The position numbers and the translations under genes are program-made. DNA of 64,000 nt from Pseudomonadales bacterium (lineage in GTDB: Bacteria; Pseudomonadota; Gammaproteobacteria; Pseudomonadales; Azotimanducaceae), in NCBI GenBank assembly GCA_028285415.1, contig JANQPF010000022.1, forward strand, positions 62,001-126,000, given 5' to 3'. Positions 5,596 through 39,457 of this stretch are shown in pieces. Each line of letters begins with the position of its first letter. Positions within the stretch are counted from its first letter, which is position 1. The notes under the pieces are model-generated. The model did not search any database and had not been told where the DNA came from. It worked only from the letters and a program-made list of their open reading frames with translations.

Positions 5596-6369
5596 ATGAA
5601 AACAGTTAGCCGACTCCGCAGAGGGGCAGTGGTGAGCCTCTTTATCCTCCCCTTCGCCGGGGCGTCAGCTGAAACCGCCGTTGACGACGTTGTCGACGTC
5701 CGGACGAGTCAGCAGGAAGCCGCCCGGGCGGTCCAGCGTCAGGTCGACGATCTCGACGATGAAACCGTTGCACTCCTTTCCCAATATCACACCGAGCTCG
5801 AGCGGCTCGCAGATCTGCAAACCTACAATGCGAACATGCGCAAGATGCGCACCAGCCAGGAAGCCGAGAAGCTGCGCCTGAGCGAAGCGCTCAAAGACGT
5901 CGAAGTCGTCCGGCGTGATCTGCTGCCGCTGATGGTCGAGATGACCGACGTGCTCGAACGTTTCATCGAGCTCGACCAGCCGCTCCTGCAGGAAGAGCGC
6001 GAGGCGCGCGTCGCCGCGCTCTCCGACACGCTGACGCGATCGGACGTGGCGCTCGGCGAGAAGTACCGGCGGGTGATCGAGGCGTACCAGATTGAAGCGG
6101 AGTATGGCCAGAACATAGAGGCTTACGAAGGCAATCTGCAGAGGGACGGTAGCGAGCTCACGGTAGACTATCTCCGCGTAGGCCGGCTGGCACTCTACTA
6201 CGTCAGCCTCGACCGCAGCGAGGCCGGACTCTGGCAGCCGCAGACCCGCCAGTGGCAGTCGCTCGAAGGCGATGCCGTGGACATGCTCGACTTTGCCCTG
6301 CGCGTCGCACGCAAACAGGCACCGCCAAATCTGTTACAGCTGCCGCTGTGGACGGGGGAGGCTGAGTGA
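5596..6369 (+). CDS. DUF3450 periplasmic coiled-coil protein of TonB operon
   Basis: 257-residue exported protein matching the DUF3450 family. A signal peptide (about residues 1-23, ending GASAE) is followed by a long, Glu/Arg-rich coiled coil (about 30-170) and a C-terminal module with a GLWQPQTRQW segment. DUF3450 genes typically lie first in TonB2/TtpC-type operons of gammaproteobacteria, as here; their role is unproven but probably periplasmic scaffolding of the energy transducer. The ATG at 5596 is chosen because AGGAGGG precedes it; an upstream in-frame ATG adds eight residues. The stop overlaps the next start. Confidence 0.85.
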   Translation: MKTVSRLRRGAVVSLFILPFAGASAETAVDDVVDVRTSQQEAARAVQRQVDDLDDETVALLSQYHTELERLADLQTYNANMRKMRTSQEAEKLRLSEALKDVEVVRRDLLPLMVEMTDVLERFIELDQPLLQEEREARVAALSDTLTRSDVALGEKYRRVIEAYQIEAEYGQNIEAYEGNLQRDGSELTVDYLRVGRLALYYVSLDRSEAGLWQPQTRQWQSLEGDAVDMLDFALRVARKQAPPNLLQLPLWTGEAE

Positions 6370-7763
6370 TGAAACCACTGTTGCGGATGCTTCTGACGGC
6401 GTTCTTTGCGGTGCTGCTGGTCCCGGCGTGGGCCGCCCAGGAACCAATGGCAGGAGACACTCAGGGAGAAGCGCAAACTTTGTCGGATCTCGTGCGCAGC
6501 GTGCGCGACACGGCCGCGCGGGCCGAGGCGCGGCTCCAGGCCCGTCAGGCGGAGTTTGTCGCCGCGCGGGATGAACAGCGCAGCCTTCTGAACGACGCCC
6601 GGCGGCGACGTCAGGCCGCCGAAGCGGAAGCCGATACGCTGCGTGCGGCGTTTGAAGTAGCTGAGGAAGAGCTTTCGGATCTGGAAACCAGGCTCGACGA
6701 AAGCGCCGGTGATCTGCGCGAGGTCTTTTCTGTTGTACGCCAGGTTTCTGGAGATGCGGCGCCGGTATTACAGAACTCTCTGGTCGGCGCGCAGAATCCA
6801 GAACGCACGAGTCTCGTGGAACGGCTCGCCGCCGGGGACGCGACGCCCACCTCGTCGGATCTCCGCTCGTTGTGGCTGACGCTGCTCGAGGAGATGGAGC
6901 AGAGCGGCAGGGTGGCACGTTTCGAAGCGCCGGTAATTTCGGCTACCGGCGAGGAAGCGACGCGGAAAGTGACACGCATCGGCACGTTTACCGCGATCGC
7001 CGATGGCAGCTATCTGCGATATCTCCCCGAGAGCGGCAAACTGCTGGCGCTGGCGCGCCAGCCGGCGGGTGCAAGTGCCGCGGAGGCGCTGCAGTTCGAG
7101 CAGGCGCAGGCGCCGCTGGCGCCGATTGCAATCGACCCGTCCAGAGGATCAATCCTTGCGCTCATCGTGCAGACCCCAGAAATGTCGGAGCGGATTGCGC
7201 AGGGTGGCATCATTGGTTACCTGATTCTCATCATCGGCGCCGTTGGGCTGGCGCTTGGCGGCGTTCGTTTCGTGCGGGTGATCATGACGCACCGGCAGGT
7301 CAACTCCGAGGTTGGCGATCCCAACGCCAACCACGGGCATACCATCAGCCGCTTGCGTGAAGTGGCAGTAGATGAAGCTTATCAGGGAGATGCAAGCGCG
7401 CTGGCCGCGAAGCTCGACGAGGTGGTGGCCGCTGCGGCGGAGCGGCTCAATCGGGGTCTGCCCACGCTTGCAATTTTTGCGGCCGTCAGTCCGTTACTCG
7501 GTTTGTTGGGCACCGTGACGGGTATGATCGAAACCTTCCAGGTGATAACGCTTTTTGGGGCCGGTGACCCGCGGCTGATGTCTGGCGGGATATCGCAGGC
7601 GCTCATCACCACCCAGCTGGGCCTGGCGGTAGCAATCCCTCTGCTGCTTCTTCACAGCTTTCTGCAGAGCCGCGCGAATGCGCTCATCACGACGCTCGAT
7701 CAGACGGCAACGGATCTCTTTGCCAGCCAGCGCGGAGCGGAGGCGAACGCTGATGTTGGGTGA
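6369..7763 (+). CDS. TtpC-like MotA/TolQ/ExbB proton-channel protein with long periplasmic domain
   Basis: 464-residue inner-membrane protein. It has a signal or first membrane segment (about residues 2-22), a long Arg/Glu-rich coiled coil (about 35-130) and a periplasmic domain. A membrane helix follows near 275-300 (GGIIGYLILIIGAVG), then the MotA/TolQ/ExbB channel core at about 350-450 (SPLLGLLGTVTGMIETF). This layout matches TtpC, the third channel-like component of Vibrio TonB2 systems. The ATG at 6369 is used; a GTG lies one codon upstream. It overlaps the following exbB by 11 bases. Confidence 0.85.
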   Translation: MKPLLRMLLTAFFAVLLVPAWAAQEPMAGDTQGEAQTLSDLVRSVRDTAARAEARLQARQAEFVAARDEQRSLLNDARRRRQAAEAEADTLRAAFEVAEEELSDLETRLDESAGDLREVFSVVRQVSGDAAPVLQNSLVGAQNPERTSLVERLAAGDATPTSSDLRSLWLTLLEEMEQSGRVARFEAPVISATGEEATRKVTRIGTFTAIADGSYLRYLPESGKLLALARQPAGASAAEALQFEQAQAPLAPIAIDPSRGSILALIVQTPEMSERIAQGGIIGYLILIIGAVGLALGGVRFVRVIMTHRQVNSEVGDPNANHGHTISRLREVAVDEAYQGDASALAAKLDEVVAAAAERLNRGLPTLAIFAAVSPLLGLLGTVTGMIETFQVITLFGAGDPRLMSGGISQALITTQLGLAVAIPLLLLHSFLQSRANALITTLDQTATDLFASQRGAEANADVG

Positions 7764-32692: not shown

Positions 32693-33704
<1,012 letters not shown>

Positions 33705-33721
<17 letters not shown>

Positions 33722-33944
33722 CTTCGGTATCGCGCAGCGCGCCAACCGCGGAGTACGTAGCCACGGCGTATGGGACGCAATAGGTCAGCAGCACCTTGAG
33801 CGCGTTGATCAGTCCGAACGTCTGGTTGATGACCGCGTCGGCGTGATTAATCAGCGCGAGCAGCGTGCCCACCACCAGGGCTACTTTGAGCGCACGGTTA
33901 CGCACCTCCGGTAACAACGCAAGCTCCAGGAAGGACGCGTTCAT
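33705..33944 (-). CDS. NrtS-like small membrane protein (nitrate/nitrite transport family)
   Basis: 79 residues with two membrane helices: NRALKVALVVGTLLALINHADAVI near 16-39 and ALKVLLTYCVPYAVATYSAVGAL near 48-70. The sequence matches the NrtS family, described in cyanobacteria for nitrate/nitrite transport, though many bacterial members are untested. The start overlaps the RdhA-like stop by four bases (ATGA), so it belongs to that operon. A separate function linked to halide or anion handling is conceivable but unsupported. Confidence 0.7.
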
Positions 33945-36079
33945 TCCACGCTGACCGTTGGAATGTAGTGCGACGGTTTTGCTTCGCCCCGCGCGGACCG
34001 CGCGCGTGCCTCATCGACGGTCTCCAGCTGTGCCGCCCGGGCGATGGCATCTCTGTGGTTGGCGGGGAAAGGCTCGACGCTGTCCGGTGGCGGGTTGTCG
34101 CTGGCATGGTAGTAACCGACCGGTGACTTCTTGCCCGAGGTATCGGCGTCGAGATCCAGATCGCGCTCGTTGGTGCCGTGCACGGGGACCTTCGCGGCGC
34201 CGTCGACGATCTCGAGGTCCAGCCACCAGCGCTTCTTCGGATTGCGCCTGCCGTAACCCAGGCGGTCGTCCAGCGCAACTGCGACCGGCACGAGGAGCGG
34301 TTTCAACCAGCGGGCGTTGACGCCGAGCCACGTGCCGATGCGGTGGGCCAGGGCGCCATCGGCCGTCACCACCTTGTTCAGCGGGCACGTTTTCATGCAG
34401 CGTCCGCAGGCTGAACCTTTCGGGTTGGTCACCCGGTAGCGCGTGCAACGTTCGACGTCCGGCTTCCAGATTTCGTAGCCGTTGAACATGACCTTGTCGC
34501 CGAACGGGATGGCGTTGACCGGACACTCCCGTGCGCACTTCAGGCAGTTGTTGCAGAAATCCTGCAGGCCAAAATCGACGGGCTTGTCGGGGACCAGGGG
34601 GAGGTTCGTTGTCATGACAACGGATTTGAAGCGCGGTCCGACAAACGGGTTCAGCACCAGCTCGCCAATGCGGGAGAGCTCGCCGAGCCCCGCCCACAGC
34701 ACGAGCGGAATCTGCAGGACCTCGCTATCGGCGTTGGTTTGCGCGCGTGAGGCATACCCCTCGCCGCGCAGAAACTCCGCCATGACGCCGGCAATTTCCG
34801 CGCCGCGAATGTAGCCACGCATGGACTGACAGCCGGAAATCCAGTCGTCACCGCTTGCCCCCTCCATGGTGTCGTAGCCCTGATCGATCAGCATCACTAC
34901 GGCGTATTTATGGCGCATCTCGATCGGCTGGCCGTCGGGACCATGGCTGTACCAGGCATAGGGCGGAATCTCGCAGATACCGGTGAGGTCGGCACCCAGG
35001 TGATAGCTCAGAGATTTGATTGCGCGGCTGTTGGCTTCGGCATCCGCCAGCGCGGGATTGGCGCTGTCCGCGGTAGTCCCATCCTGGTGCGGCACCAGGG
35101 CCCGCAACGGCTTCATCATGCCGTCGGTGAGCGGGTGCTTGAACGCGAAACGTTTCACTTCGCGCTGGGCTTTGGCGCCGAGGTCTCCCATGCGTGAGCG
35201 GAAAAAGAACTCCGCCCGCTTCGGCACCCTGGGGACCTCGTCGTCGAGTATCAGCGTTGTCGGCCGCTCTACCCGCGTGACCTGCTCCATGGGGTAGCGG
35301 CTGAGGTGGCTCGGACGCCGTGCCACGCGTCTGTGTTCGCGGCCCGATACCGCGCCGTTGATGCCCCACCAGTAGCGCAGAGCGTTGGGTGATGCATCAG
35401 CAGCCAGAGGCTGATCCGGCGCGAGCGCATAGTCGGTGGCAACGACAACGGCGGCGTAGTCCGTGCCGAAAAACGGGCTGACAACGTCGCTGCCCCGGCG
35501 CTGACCGATGCCGGCGAGCACGCCGAGTTTATCGATATCGAGATCCGTACCTCCGGCTTGATGCAACGTCGCGGTAAAGCCGAGGGCGCGGATATGCCCG
35601 GTGATGGATACGCCGATCTCGAGCGCGCGCATGGTCGCAATGTCGTGGCTGGCGTGTTGCAGCCAAGCGTTCGCCAAATTGTCAGACTCAGGAAGTCTGC
35701 CATGGCGGACCCAGATGACCACGGCGTGACTCTGTTCGGCCGGTGATGTCAGCCAGGCCTGCCCTGGGATGCCTGCGATGCCAACGTGTGAGGCGTCGAG
35801 GTAGTAGGCGGCGCCTTTGATTTCCTGAGCGCGGCGCCCGAGATCCGCCGGCACCGGCGCGCGTGGCCATTCGGCGGGAGTATCACAGTCGATGAGAATC
35901 TGCGCGTAGCGCCGGGCAATGTCTGCCAGGGCCGAATCAGCCGGTGGCACTTTGTCGGCAGGCTCTAGAGCAGGCTGCGCGCTCTCGCGGGCAGCGAGGC
36001 TGGTATCTCGCGCCAGTGCCTCCAGCGGATACGGCCCGAGTTCCACACCCCGGGTGTGGGCGCGGTCGCGGAAGAGCAT
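33941..36079 (-). CDS. Reductive-dehalogenase-like cobalamin/Fe-S protein (cytosolic, NpRdhA-type)
   Basis: 712-residue protein with no Tat or Sec signal. It has an N-terminal module (about 85-215) that appears to repeat the later cobalamin-type module (about 350-495). For example, YYLDASHVGIAGIP parallels SYHLGADLTGICEIP. After it come two [4Fe-4S] motifs: Cys509/512/515/519 (CNNCLKCARECP) and Cys545/558/561/565 (CGRCMKTCP). This order matches respiration-independent reductive dehalogenases such as NpRdhA. QueG shares the B12/2x[4Fe-4S] logic but is about half as long. The HEWGH gene is 13 bases upstream. No reductase partner is adjacent. The family is fairly sure; the dehalogenation reaction is unproven. 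Confidence 0.82.
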   Translation of the reverse strand: MLFRDRAHTRGVELGPYPLEALARDTSLAARESAQPALEPADKVPPADSALADIARRYAQILIDCDTPAEWPRAPVPADLGRRAQEIKGAAYYLDASHVGIAGIPGQAWLTSPAEQSHAVVIWVRHGRLPESDNLANAWLQHASHDIATMRALEIGVSITGHIRALGFTATLHQAGGTDLDIDKLGVLAGIGQRRGSDVVSPFFGTDYAAVVVATDYALAPDQPLAADASPNALRYWWGINGAVSGREHRRVARRPSHLSRYPMEQVTRVERPTTLILDDEVPRVPKRAEFFFRSRMGDLGAKAQREVKRFAFKHPLTDGMMKPLRALVPHQDGTTADSANPALADAEANSRAIKSLSYHLGADLTGICEIPPYAWYSHGPDGQPIEMRHKYAVVMLIDQGYDTMEGASGDDWISGCQSMRGYIRGAEIAGVMAEFLRGEGYASRAQTNADSEVLQIPLVLWAGLGELSRIGELVLNPFVGPRFKSVVMTTNLPLVPDKPVDFGLQDFCNNCLKCARECPVNAIPFGDKVMFNGYEIWKPDVERCTRYRVTNPKGSACGRCMKTCPLNKVVTADGALAHRIGTWLGVNARWLKPLLVPVAVALDDRLGYGRRNPKKRWWLDLEIVDGAAKVPVHGTNERDLDLDADTSGKKSPVGYYHASDNPPPDSVEPFPANHRDAIARAAQLETVDEARARSARGEAKPSHYIPTVSVE

Positions 36080-36092
36080 GTCAGCCCGACGC

Positions 36093-36722
36093 TCAGCTCA
36101 CGCTGGCCAGGGCAAAAAGACCGGCGATGGTGCCGATGACGGTTGCCTGACGCAGGTCTTTCTTGCTCAACGCCTGCAGGCGGGTCTCGGGGTCCTCGCC
36201 TTCCCGGGTGTCTTTGACGATGTTGTATTCGATGACGGTGGCAAACACGATGAAACCAAAAATTGCGCTGACGAGGGCAATTCTGCCGAGGGTGTCGAGC
36301 GGCACCATGATGAGCAGCAGAATGAGAATCGACCAGTGCGCGACGTGACCGCCGTAGGTCATCCAGTGAAACTGCCGCACGTCGTTCTCGGCATAGTTGA
36401 ACGCGAAGCGGAAAAAGCTGAGCGACTTCGGATAGGTTCGGGTCGTAGAGGCCCCGCTTGCCACGGCGCCTGCGTAGTGGCCCCATTCGTGAAAGAGCGC
36501 TGCCAGCAGCAGCCCAACGAGGACAGCGTCGCCGATCGCAACCACCTGGGCCAGCCAGAGCCCCGTCACCTGATACCAGGTGTCTGCCGCCGCCCACAGC
36601 GACAAAGCGGCGAAAATGATGGCCGTGTCTTTCAACAGCATGCCAACCAGGCTCGGCTCATCGGTGGTGACCGTTTCCGCGGCGCTCGGCGCACCGCTCA
36701 GATTTTCTGTTGCTTCCGCCAT
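36093..36722 (-). CDS. Polytopic membrane protein with HEWGH (M50-like) motif
   Basis: 209 residues with about five membrane helices. A HEWGH motif at 78-82 sits at the end of one helix (LLLAALFHEWGHYAGAV), as in M50 site-2 proteases, but the distal NPxDG-type motif is not obvious. It could be a peptidase, or a heme- or metal-binding membrane protein. It is the first gene of the operon with the RdhA-like protein (13-base gap). It ends ...DLRQATVIGTIAGLFALASVS. Confidence 0.6.
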   Translation of the reverse strand: MAEATENLSGAPSAAETVTTDEPSLVGMLLKDTAIIFAALSLWAAADTWYQVTGLWLAQVVAIGDAVLVGLLLAALFHEWGHYAGAVASGASTTRTYPKSLSFFRFAFNYAENDVRQFHWMTYGGHVAHWSILILLLIMVPLDTLGRIALVSAIFGFIVFATVIEYNIVKDTREGEDPETRLQALSKKDLRQATVIGTIAGLFALASVS

Positions 36723-36820
36723 GGAATATCCCCCCAGATGTCACGGCATATCAGGCGCGGCGGATAGGGCCGCAGGGCCGGAGATGTTAGCCCAACTGGT
36801 CAGGCCCGGCAAAGCATGAC

Positions 36821-36841
36821 GGGTGGTGTCTGACACCACCC
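36821..36841. terminator. Perfect inverted repeat in gap between SDR and HEWGH genes
   Basis: Arms GGGTGGTGTC and GACACCACCC flank a single T, giving a perfect 10-base inverted repeat (stem of about nine with a CTG loop). It lies 10 bases beyond the stop of the SDR gene at 36851 and upstream of the HEWGH operon. No T-run follows on the minus strand, so it could be a weak terminator or an operator/protein site. Confidence 0.4.
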
Positions 36842-36850
36842 GCCACAGCT

Positions 36851-37684
36851 TCACTCCATGCCTTTTTTGCCGGCCTCACGGAAAAGCGGTTCGTACTCTG
36901 CGAACGCAATTGGGTTGGTAGTGGCGCCAATGGTGGTGCCGGCGTCCGTGGTCAGGGTGTGGCCGGTGGTGTAGCCGGATTCGTCACTGGCAAGCCACAG
37001 GGCGGCGTTGACGACGTCTTCAGCCAGCCCCGGACGCCCCTTGAGCGGTGAGTTTTGCGCCAGGATCTTTTTAGTCTCTTCGATTGCGTCGGGATCGCCC
37101 GTCGACACGTTGGCAACCATCGCGGTGGCCATGCCCGCTGGAGCAATCGCGTTGGCGCGAATGTTGTAGTGGCACAGCTCGGCGGCAACGCCCTTGGTCA
37201 GGCCGACAACGGCATGTTTACACGCGGTGTAGCAGTGTGGTCCGAGCCCGCCCAGAATGCCCGCGGTGCTGGCCATGCTGATGATGGAGCCGGAACCCTG
37301 CGGCATCATCACGCGTGCCGCGTGCTTGCATCCGTAGAAGACGCCGTTCAGGAGAATGTCCACAGTGAAACGCCATTCGTCTCCGGGCGTGCTGGATATT
37401 GGACCTACGGCTCCGACGATGCCGGCGTTGTTGTACATGACGTCGAGCTTGCCGAACTCGGAGACTGCGGTATCCACCATGTTGGCGATATGCTCTTCGT
37501 TCGTGACGTTGCAGTCCACGTAAATGGCATTGGCGCCGAGTTCGGCGGCAACCGCCTTGCCGGCTTCTTCCTGGATATCGCCAAGAACGACCTTGGCACC
37601 CTCTGCAACGAACCGCCGTGCAGCGCCCGCACCGAAACCGCTGGCCGCGCCGGTAATGGCGGCCACTTTACCTTCGAGTCTCAT
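36851..37684 (-). CDS. SDR family oxidoreductase
   Basis: 277-residue classical SDR. The cofactor motif GAASGFGAG is near 16-24, an NNAG motif near 85-91, and the active-site Tyr-Lys lies in CYTACKHAV. Family members of this size act on sugars, 3-alpha-hydroxysteroids, cis-dihydrodiols or acyl intermediates. In this setting, downstream on the strand of the 2-hydroxyacid dehydrogenase and hydratase, a dihydrodiol or alcohol dehydrogenase role is plausible but not shown. The stop is followed by the inverted repeat at 36821. Confidence 0.88.
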   Translation of the reverse strand: MRLEGKVAAITGAASGFGAGAARRFVAEGAKVVLGDIQEEAGKAVAAELGANAIYVDCNVTNEEHIANMVDTAVSEFGKLDVMYNNAGIVGAVGPISSTPGDEWRFTVDILLNGVFYGCKHAARVMMPQGSGSIISMASTAGILGGLGPHCYTACKHAVVGLTKGVAAELCHYNIRANAIAPAGMATAMVANVSTGDPDAIEETKKILAQNSPLKGRPGLAEDVVNAALWLASDESGYTTGHTLTTDAGTTIGATTNPIAFAEYEPLFREAGKKGME

Positions 37685-37708: not shown

Positions 37709-38683
37709 TCAGTAACCCTGTGTTTTATCGATAATACCTTCTAAGGGTTCACCGCGTACAAATTTTCCCAGGTTGTCGACGAAACGCTGCAGGTTCCGCT
37801 CGGCCCGGTACTGACTCGCGCCTGCCGTGTGCGGTGTCATCACCACATTCGGCAACGCCCACAGCCGGCTCTCGGATGGCAGCGGCTCACGCGGCGCAAC
37901 GTCCAGCCCGGCACCGGCGATGGTGCCGTTCTCCAGAGCGTCAACCAGCGCGGCTTCGTCCATGATTTCGCCGCGTGTGACGTTGATGAGAATGGCGTTG
38001 GCTCTGCACAGTTTCAGGGTCTTTTCGTTGATCAGTTTGTTGGTCGCTTCTGTGAGCGGGCAGCACACCGCAACCACGTCGCTTGCGCCCAACACGTCGG
38101 CGAGGGCGCTTTCCGGCTCGACGAGGTCGACACCCTCGCCGGGCGCTACGGGATCCTTGTCCAGCGCGCGTACGTGCATGCCGAACGCATGTGCCCGCCG
38201 CGCCATTGCGCGGCCCGTGCCGCCGAAGCCGATGATGCCCATCGTCAGCCCGGTGAGCTCGAATTCCTGGCGGCGCAGCTCCGGGCGGTGATTCCAGGCT
38301 TCCGGGCCGAGGTCTCGAGCGGCGGCAAGCTGCCGCGTCAGCATGAGAAGAAGGCCAAACCCATGGTCGGCCAGGTGTTCGCCCACCAACCCCTTTTCGC
38401 TCGTGAGAATGACGGGGCTGTTGATGAACTCGGGGTACATGAAGGCGTCCACGCCGGAAGAAATGGACTGGACCCATTTGAGCTGTGCCGCCGCGCGGAA
38501 GAGCTTTGGCGGCACAATGCCGAGGATCACGTCGGCATCGCCGATGTGGTTGACCGCGTCGGCGTACTCCGACACGACGACGGTTGCGTCTGCACCCGCG
38601 GCGCTGTGGACATCGGCCAGCGCCGCGTCGGAAATGGTGGGGAGCGTGAGGCCCGGAATGATCAGTACTTTGATAGTTGTCAT
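37709..38683 (-). CDS. D-2-hydroxyacid dehydrogenase family protein
   Basis: 324 residues from ATG 38683 (a GTG at 38692 adds three). It has the NAD-binding GIIGFGGTGRAMARR motif in the middle, and conserved elements NVTRGEIMDEAALVDAL and TPHTAG containing the family's Arg, Glu and His region. The family oxidises or reduces 2-hydroxy/2-keto acids; phosphoglycerate and phosphite dehydrogenases are relatives. It overlaps or nearly abuts the hydratase gene upstream, so the pair probably handles a 2-keto acid intermediate. Specific substrate unknown. Confidence 0.88.
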   Translation of the reverse strand: MTTIKVLIIPGLTLPTISDAALADVHSAAGADATVVVSEYADAVNHIGDADVILGIVPPKLFRAAAQLKWVQSISSGVDAFMYPEFINSPVILTSEKGLVGEHLADHGFGLLLMLTRQLAAARDLGPEAWNHRPELRRQEFELTGLTMGIIGFGGTGRAMARRAHAFGMHVRALDKDPVAPGEGVDLVEPESALADVLGASDVVAVCCPLTEATNKLINEKTLKLCRANAILINVTRGEIMDEAALVDALENGTIAGAGLDVAPREPLPSESRLWALPNVVMTPHTAGASQYRAERNLQRFVDNLGKFVRGEPLEGIIDKTQGY

Positions 38684-38692
38684 GCGTGGCAC

Positions 38693-39457
38693 TCAGGCAA
38701 GGTTGACCGCGACGCTGCCGACGCTCTGATCAAAATCGCCGCGGTACGACCCATGTGCGAAGGGGGTCTTGCCGTAAGCGCCGGTGATGACCCGCTGCCC
38801 CGCTTCGAGCTGCTGGCCGTACTCAGCCAGGCGTCGTGCCAGCGTTGCCAGGGATTCGAAGTGATCGTCGATGTGTCCGGGGCTGCTGACGCTCTCGATG
38901 ATCCGGTCTTCGCCATTGTGCTCGGCCACCAGGGTGACGGTCATTTCGTTGAGCGCAACAGGGATAGGCGCTGCCTCACCGACAACAATCCCCCAGTTGG
39001 ATAAGTCGTCCGCCACCCTGAGCCCCGGGCCGGCACCGCCGGTCAGACGTTTCTGGTTGACTTCGAAGGCGGGCGCGATGCCTGCTACAGCGTTCCTGGC
39101 GGCCTCGGTCGTGGCGCCCGCGCCGAGCTTGCTACCCATCACAAGGCACAGTTCGTTTTCGACCTGTCCACGATGCAGTTTGTCGAGCGGCAGCGTGGCG
39201 CCGCTGTCGAAAATGCGATCGGCAAGGATGAAGCCGAACGGCCGCAGACCCTCGCCCATGGCGTTTCTGGACGCACCGCTCGTCATGCCGATTTTCCAAC
39301 CGCCGACGACCTTGCCTTCCTCCAGCCAGCGGGCGAGCAGCTCCAGCTGGAGCGCTTGACCTTCGTCGAACGGAACGTCGAGTTCCGCAAGCGCAGCCTC
39401 GTGCCCGCCGCCGGGATCGTTGTGCACGCGCCACAGCAGATCGACGATGTCTTGCAT
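38693..39457 (-). CDS. 2-keto-4-pentenoate hydratase/fumarylacetoacetate hydrolase-superfamily protein
   Basis: 254-residue protein with GWKIGMTSGASRNAMG near residues 53-68, matching hydratases such as MhpD that act on 2-hydroxypenta-2,4-dienoates after meta-cleavage of catechols. Metal ligands of the family (Glu/Asp in the FEVNQ region, GAGPGLRVADD) are partly seen. The next gene on the strand is a 2-hydroxyacid dehydrogenase (stop to start nearly touching). A LigW/ACMSD-type amidohydrolase lies divergently upstream. This set suggests aromatic-ring breakdown. Confidence 0.8.
   Translation of the reverse strand: MQDIVDLLWRVHNDPGGGHEAALAELDVPFDEGQALQLELLARWLEEGKVVGGWKIGMTSGASRNAMGEGLRPFGFILADRIFDSGATLPLDKLHRGQVENELCLVMGSKLGAGATTEAARNAVAGIAPAFEVNQKRLTGGAGPGLRVADDLSNWGIVVGEAAPIPVALNEMTVTLVAEHNGEDRIIESVSSPGHIDDHFESLATLARRLAEYGQQLEAGQRVITGAYGKTPFAHGSYRGDFDQSVGSVAVNLA

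Follow-up and report, generated by a model that had tools for sequence, protein, structure and literature searches.

A predicted NpRdhA-type reductive dehalogenase and its genus-level gene neighborhood in a Pseudomonadales bacterium

The described systems closest to the locus analyzed here are the reductive dehalogenase (RdhA) of Nitratireductor pacificus pht-3B, NpRdhA (PDB 4RAS, 6ZXU, and 6ZXX), the self-sufficient catabolic enzymes JtRdhA and BhbA, which carry a fused phthalate-dioxygenase-reductase domain, and the respiratory enzyme PceA. Passages of PMC10463259 describe every catabolic RdhA characterized to date as specific for ortho-halogenated phenols and place ferredoxin/reductase genes alongside the NpRdhA gene. 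Here, we analyzed a 64,000-nucleotide stretch of DNA (the window) from a Pseudomonadales bacterium of the Azotimanducaceae (GenBank assembly GCA_028285415.1, contig JANQPF010000022.1, positions 62,001 to 126,000), in which three genes follow one another on the minus strand. They encode a membrane protein of 209 amino acids (aa) with an HEWGH motif (36093..36722), an RdhA of the NpRdhA type without a fused reductase (33941..36079; 712 aa), and a small membrane protein of the NrtS family (33705..33944; 79 aa; match to NF038050). The positions and tight spacing given in a preliminary description of the locus were correct: 13 bases lie between the end of the HEWGH gene at 36093 and the RdhA ATG at 36079, and the RdhA and NrtS genes overlap by four bases, ATGA, at 33941-33944. 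We consider it likely that the RdhA is a soluble, respiration-independent (catabolic) reductive dehalogenase of ortho-halophenols and that the HEWGH and NrtS proteins are cluster neighbors that it can dispense with. The trio is a genus-level arrangement rather than a conserved machine, and its RdhA adds a member to the known NpRdhA type.

The central protein had been proposed to be an NpRdhA-type reductive dehalogenase with a duplicated module and two clusters, and its sequence, active-site residues, and predicted fold all agree with that assignment. It matched TIGR02486 (reductive dehalogenase) with 189.4 bits against a cutoff of 160.35. A vestigial N-terminal duplicate of the module (approximately residues 75-235; 35375..35857, minus strand, as are all RdhA features) aligns to residues 342-514 with 27% identity (E 5e-15). 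The cysteines of both [4Fe-4S] sites, motif 1 (CNNCLKCARECP; Cys509, 512, 515, and 519; 34520..34555) and motif 2 (Cys545, 558, 561, and 565; 34382..34447), are kept in 91 of 91 aligned rows, and the N-terminus, MLFRDRAHTRGVELG..., read by eye, has no twin arginine, consistent with the proposed lack of a Tat signal. The structure prediction called for in the preliminary description gave a fold matching that of NpRdhA, with an alignment that extends over model residues 1-699. The gene, both conserved and intact, is more than a chance open reading frame (ORF) and is under purifying selection: three pairs gave ratios of nonsynonymous to synonymous substitution rates (dN/dS) of 0.113, 0.055, and 0.070, with synonymous sites close to saturation in the second and third.

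The likeness to NpRdhA thus covers length, duplicated module, both [4Fe-4S] motifs, lack of a fused reductase, fold, and the equivalents of S422, M423, Y426, K488, and R552, whereas the two proteins are only ~46-47% identical, fall in separate sister clades, and differ at A419, P311, and K307 of NpRdhA, where the window protein has Gly, Ala, and Val. With JtRdhA and BhbA it would share the catabolic, cytosolic, ortho-halophenol type, and with JtRdhA the same key residues, going by passages of PMC10463259; unlike both, it ends at 712 aa without the fused domain. What it shares with PceA is the cobalamin/2×[4Fe-4S] core, which in the window protein spans residues 261-622.

Residues S422, K488, R552, and Y426 of NpRdhA, which correspond to S419, K485, R549, and Y423 of the window protein, do not vary in any of the 82 rows compared. 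In the alignment, Tyr423 (34811..34813), kept in 54/54 close, 26/26 NpRdhA-like, and 2/2 fused rows, stands for the proton donor Tyr426, Lys485 (34625..34627) for Lys488, which is catalytic and binds the phenol oxygen, and Arg549 (34433..34435) for Arg552, which binds the same oxygen; these roles are taken from passages of PMC7565698 and PMC10463259. By homology, the active site would contain cobalamin, supplied with electrons by the two [4Fe-4S] clusters. Ser419, Lys485, and Arg549 would hold the phenolate oxygen of an ortho-halogenated phenol, its halogen would contact the cobalt, and Tyr423 would give the proton; the halide and the dehalogenated phenol would then be released, and the phenol would be taken on by the surrounding catabolic genes. 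Judged from sequence and model together, the enzyme very probably strips halogens from phenols. At NpRdhA position 419, part of the second-halogen pocket, all 54 close rows and 20 of the 26 NpRdhA-like rows have Gly, so that the Ala of NpRdhA is the minority residue.

Relatives of the RdhA were collected in one scan, of which the best 80 of 577 were kept, and a tree of 85 rows was built by a quick method. The window RdhA fell in a 57-row clade (support 99), apart from a 24-row clade with NpRdhA (support 100), and within the larger clade it belonged to a 7-row set from its own genus (support 99; six genomes, one represented twice). Judged by this tree, NpRdhA has a broad sister clade that includes the window protein and that, according to record titles, consists mostly of Gamma-, Alpha-, and Betaproteobacteria. 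Of the 54 close loci, 47 had their ORFs listed; 40 of these ORFs were not truncated at a contig end and measured 685-915 aa, some of them mechanically over-extended at the start, and none of these was long enough to include a fused reductase. Two relatives in the same order have open frames of 1065 and 1114 aa and are probably of the fused kind. NpRdhA-type dehalogenation is known to tolerate oxygen. The locus points to B12-dependent dehalogenation of halophenols in gammaproteobacteria known mainly from metagenome-assembled genomes, and enzymes from the sister clade could be used to test substrate range and to identify the natural electron donor.

As the preliminary description noted, no reductase partner adjoins the gene: a scan of 20 neighboring window genes found none of the ferredoxin-reductase type, a difference from NpRdhA. 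The four PF00175 reductases of the genome all lie on other contigs, Pyr_redox-type reductases and ferredoxins not having been searched genome-wide. NqrF scored over its cutoff, a PaaE-like reductase scored 408 bits, just under its cutoff of 420.8, and the FNR/BoxA-type and flavohemoprotein/PaaE-like reductases both scored far under theirs. Because spinach ferredoxin and Escherichia coli flavodoxin reductase can drive NpRdhA in vitro, as given in a passage of PMC10463259, the PaaE-like and FNR-like reductases are by analogy the best candidates for electron donor; an NAD(P)H reductase encoded away from the locus would supply the electrons, probably via ferredoxin. The genome is rich in TonB-dependent receptors, and 67 of its stretches match the model for the TonB-dependent B12 receptor, none of them over the cutoff.

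To place the trio, 40 genomes of the genus were searched. A long RdhA is present in six, namely, the window's own genome (G000), G308, G312, G313, G316, and G320, and G317 retains an N-terminal piece where its contig ends. A remnant in G319 (L214, 5709-6344) is an in-frame ORF of 211 aa that keeps only the N- and C-terminal ends; an NrtS gene with 71% identity to that of the window still comes after it. Three further genomes gave weak matches only, in frames of QueG size. G313, in addition to its window-type RdhA, contains fragments of a second, distant RdhA (~30-43% identical; L229 (C53) 3-1409 and C266:4047-4526).

Among these eight loci with RdhA or a remnant, HEWGH adjoins RdhA in five (G000, G308, G312, G313, and G320); G317 and G319 lack it at that position, and in G316 it is cut off. 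NrtS adjoins RdhA or the remnant in four (G000, G312, G316, and G319); G308 and G313 lack it there, and in G317 and G320 it is cut off. The full trio is therefore seen in two of the eight and broken in four, and in the remaining two a flank is cut off. In five other genomes (G039, G179, G200, G297, and G310), HEWGH lies next to NrtS with no RdhA found; the contig of G200 ends within NrtS. In G299, HEWGH has no NrtS beside it. RdhA sits at the point where HEWGH and NrtS meet in the RdhA-free genomes. Cross-mapped genes define a genus-level cluster of a hydratase, HEWGH, NrtS, an aldo/keto reductase, an FAD oxidoreductase, short-chain dehydrogenases/reductases (SDRs), an amidohydrolase, and a GST; in the RdhA-free relatives, its genes are 71-83% identical to those of the window (74% for the amidohydrolase and 83% and 71% for SDRs), and the aldo/keto reductases of G039 and G316 share 78% identity. 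The HEWGH-NrtS pair belongs to this catabolic cluster, in which RdhA is optional; RdhA lies between the two but would not need them. In unrooted trees of the aldo/keto reductase (9 rows) and of HEWGH (15 rows, weak support), the genomes without RdhA fall together, which fits either one gain or one loss of RdhA. A TauD-type dioxygenase follows NrtS directly in four of the five RdhA-free genomes with the pair (G039, G179, G297, and G310), and in G200 the contig ends there.

Beyond the genus, the recurrent linkage of the three genes that had been anticipated did not appear. Searches at E≤1 found either membrane gene in 3 of 80 RdhA loci, all from the window's genus: HEWGH in L002 and L007 and NrtS in L003 and L007 (L002, L003, and L007 are the genus members G308, G316, and G312). 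Neither gene was found in the other 77, of which 58 are flanked by 1 kb or more on each side (as are 59 of the full 80); L050, among the 77, was too short for the tree and could be a genus member. As controls, the NrtS query recovered 30 of 30 NrtS loci of the order found earlier by the family model, and the HEWGH query recovered 30 of 30 HEWGH loci, 29 at E≤0.001, but the same protein had found them in the first place. Viewed from the membrane genes, RdhA adjoins NrtS in 1 of the 30 NrtS loci of the order, the window alone. Of 55 HEWGH loci retrieved, one (the window) has RdhA alongside and five, all of the genus, have NrtS, with flanks of ~1.5 kb that leave the window's own NrtS outside. HEWGH proteins occur in 62 of 150 genomes of the wider family, in varied surroundings. 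A survey without conserved linkage had been named in advance as the outcome that would speak against the three-gene proposal; because no conserved linkage extends beyond the genus, that is the outcome reached, the association within the genus excepted.

Other neighbors of RdhA are no more constant. Clustering of neighbors in the 54 close RdhA loci, with ORFs that were picked mechanically and are not all genes, placed no family in more than six loci among the 40 clusters listed; with no widely conserved neighbor, there is therefore none that names the substrate. The other genus-cluster genes tested (at least 60% identity) were absent from the 77 other RdhA loci except for an SDR, 71-72% identical to that of the window, in L005 (3073-3894) and L035 (8114-8935), where it lies directly beside RdhA but on the opposite strand (convergent). 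These two loci are near relatives of each other and stand outside L002, L003, and L007, and the SDR is the sole cluster gene seen following RdhA outside the genus.

These patterns bear most on the proposal that the three genes are a dedicated unit, in which RdhA would dehalogenate in the cytosol, NrtS would release the halide, and HEWGH would anchor or mature RdhA. The tight spacing in the window, the presence of HEWGH beside RdhA in 5/8 and of NrtS in 4/8 genus loci, and the name of NrtS as an anion-transporter family speak for such a unit, which we nevertheless regard as unlikely, given the 77 of 80 RdhA loci with neither gene, the RdhAs of G308 and G313 without adjacent NrtS, the RdhA piece of G317 and remnant of G319 without adjacent HEWGH, the five genomes in which the pair occurs with no RdhA found, and the single RdhA neighbor among 30 NrtS loci. 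A conserved three-gene dehalogenase system was rejected, as the trio does not recur in different lineages and is often incomplete within the genus. The idea that dehalogenase systems recurrently include the membrane pair is likewise unsupported (three loci, all one genus), which removes the pair as candidate universal RdhA partners. A literature search found no paper tying a reductive dehalogenase to NrtS, the M50 family, a halide exporter, or bromide efflux.

A second alternative, rather improbable in our view, is that this RdhA homologue acts on a nonhalogenated substrate of the cluster, for example in a reductive step on an oxidized phenolic intermediate. The cluster is kept in genomes with and without RdhA, so that halogenated substrates are not necessarily its main business, and Gly replaces A419 throughout the close rows; against this stand the invariance of the phenol-oxygen and proton-donor residues in all 82 rows and the ortho-halophenol specificity of characterized catabolic RdhAs in the passages of PMC10463259 cited above. 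It is about as improbable that RdhA was captured between HEWGH and NrtS since an NrtS-type channel would clear freed bromide or iodide, making the trio a young, genus-made unit for dehalogenation and halide export; if so, NrtS proteins would be general small-anion channels, not nitrate transporters. A relative of QueG or CblC instead of a dehalogenase is contradicted by family scores (QueG model TIGR00276, 24 bits against a cutoff of 200), full-length matches, and predicted fold.

Several observations weigh against a catabolic ortho-halophenol dehalogenase independent of its membrane neighbors. PF13486, the Pfam domain given for an RDase in a passage of PMC13101508, is not among the Pfam matches of the RdhA at E≤1. 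Three pocket positions are unlike those of NpRdhA (A419 to Gly, P311 to Ala, and K307 to Val), and substrate preference may therefore differ. The candidate reductases other than NqrF score under curated cutoffs, as does the hydratase relative upstream of the trio, and no curated B12 receptor was found over its cutoff in the genome (best 251 bits against 599.7), which is weak receptor evidence for a B12 supply. Completeness of the RdhA-free draft genomes is 93-99%, and short contigs carry two of the five HEWGH-NrtS loci, so an individual absence of RdhA could reflect a gap. We know of no characterized member of the clade to which the window RdhA belongs.

As for the membrane proteins themselves, the HEWGH motif comprises residues 78-82, and H78, E79, W80, H82, N113, and G125 are invariant over 46 rows, with Q117, F118, and E165 nearly so; the zinc-motif residues of HExxH (H78, E79, and H82) are thus fully kept. 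The likeness to M50 metalloproteases consists of an HExGH motif in a helical membrane protein and matches of 14 of the 46 homologues to PF02163 (Peptidase_M50) at E≤0.1 (best 7.1e-05), whereas the window protein itself reaches 11.9 bits, far under the Pfam cutoff of 27.2. A profile search against PDB returned no relative better than E 0.6, and RseP, at E 2, matched over the motif only. An AlphaFold model from three sequences (pLDDT 47.6) was discarded. From its sequence, the protein is best termed an HExGH membrane protein without an accepted family. A second, distant protein of the HEWGH family (~26% identical) is encoded in the window's own genome (L156 (G000 C30) 5997-6599).

NrtS is by name an anion-transporter family, and work on it exists in cyanobacteria. 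The window protein matched NCBIfam NF038050 with 48.3 bits against a cutoff of 25; no nitrate gene was found among its scanned neighbors. The name here is that of a family, and nitrate/nitrite transport is putative. Elsewhere in the order, NrtS lies beside a Pyr_redox_2 disulfide oxidoreductase in 7 of 30 loci (L115, L116, L119, L123, L125, L130, and L140; six of one kind plus L140), beside a glutaredoxin in L131, and beside an NnrS gene in L113, the neighbors in the other loci having been read by eye. These neighbors hint at redox or nitrogen-oxide roles, the NnrS gene being the single hint of nitrogen-oxide metabolism seen among the 30.

The same-strand run extends upstream of the trio, in the order hydratase/decarboxylase relative (38693-39457), D-2-hydroxyacid dehydrogenase (37709-38692), SDR (36851-37684), HEWGH, RdhA, and NrtS, all on the minus strand. 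The SDR, the gene nearest to HEWGH, is separated from it by a gap of 128 bases with a strong hairpin (36813..36850, minus strand) that lacks a T-run. A terminator scan of this gap returned no terminator-like match at the hairpin, and folding of the whole gap barely beats that of shuffles (z -1.26); the trio may or may not have its own transcript. Catabolic-type genes surround the trio, among them the meta-cleavage hydratase relative, a Rieske oxygenase, a nitroreductase, and an amidohydrolase. The hydratase is related to 2-oxopent-4-enoate and 2-oxohept-4-ene-dioate hydratases, which from sequence hints at aromatic meta-cleavage in the cluster. Converging on the trio from the other side is an aldo/keto reductase gene (32693..33721, plus strand), a frequent neighbor in the genus, whose product is 78-82% identical to the copies in G308, G313, and G319.

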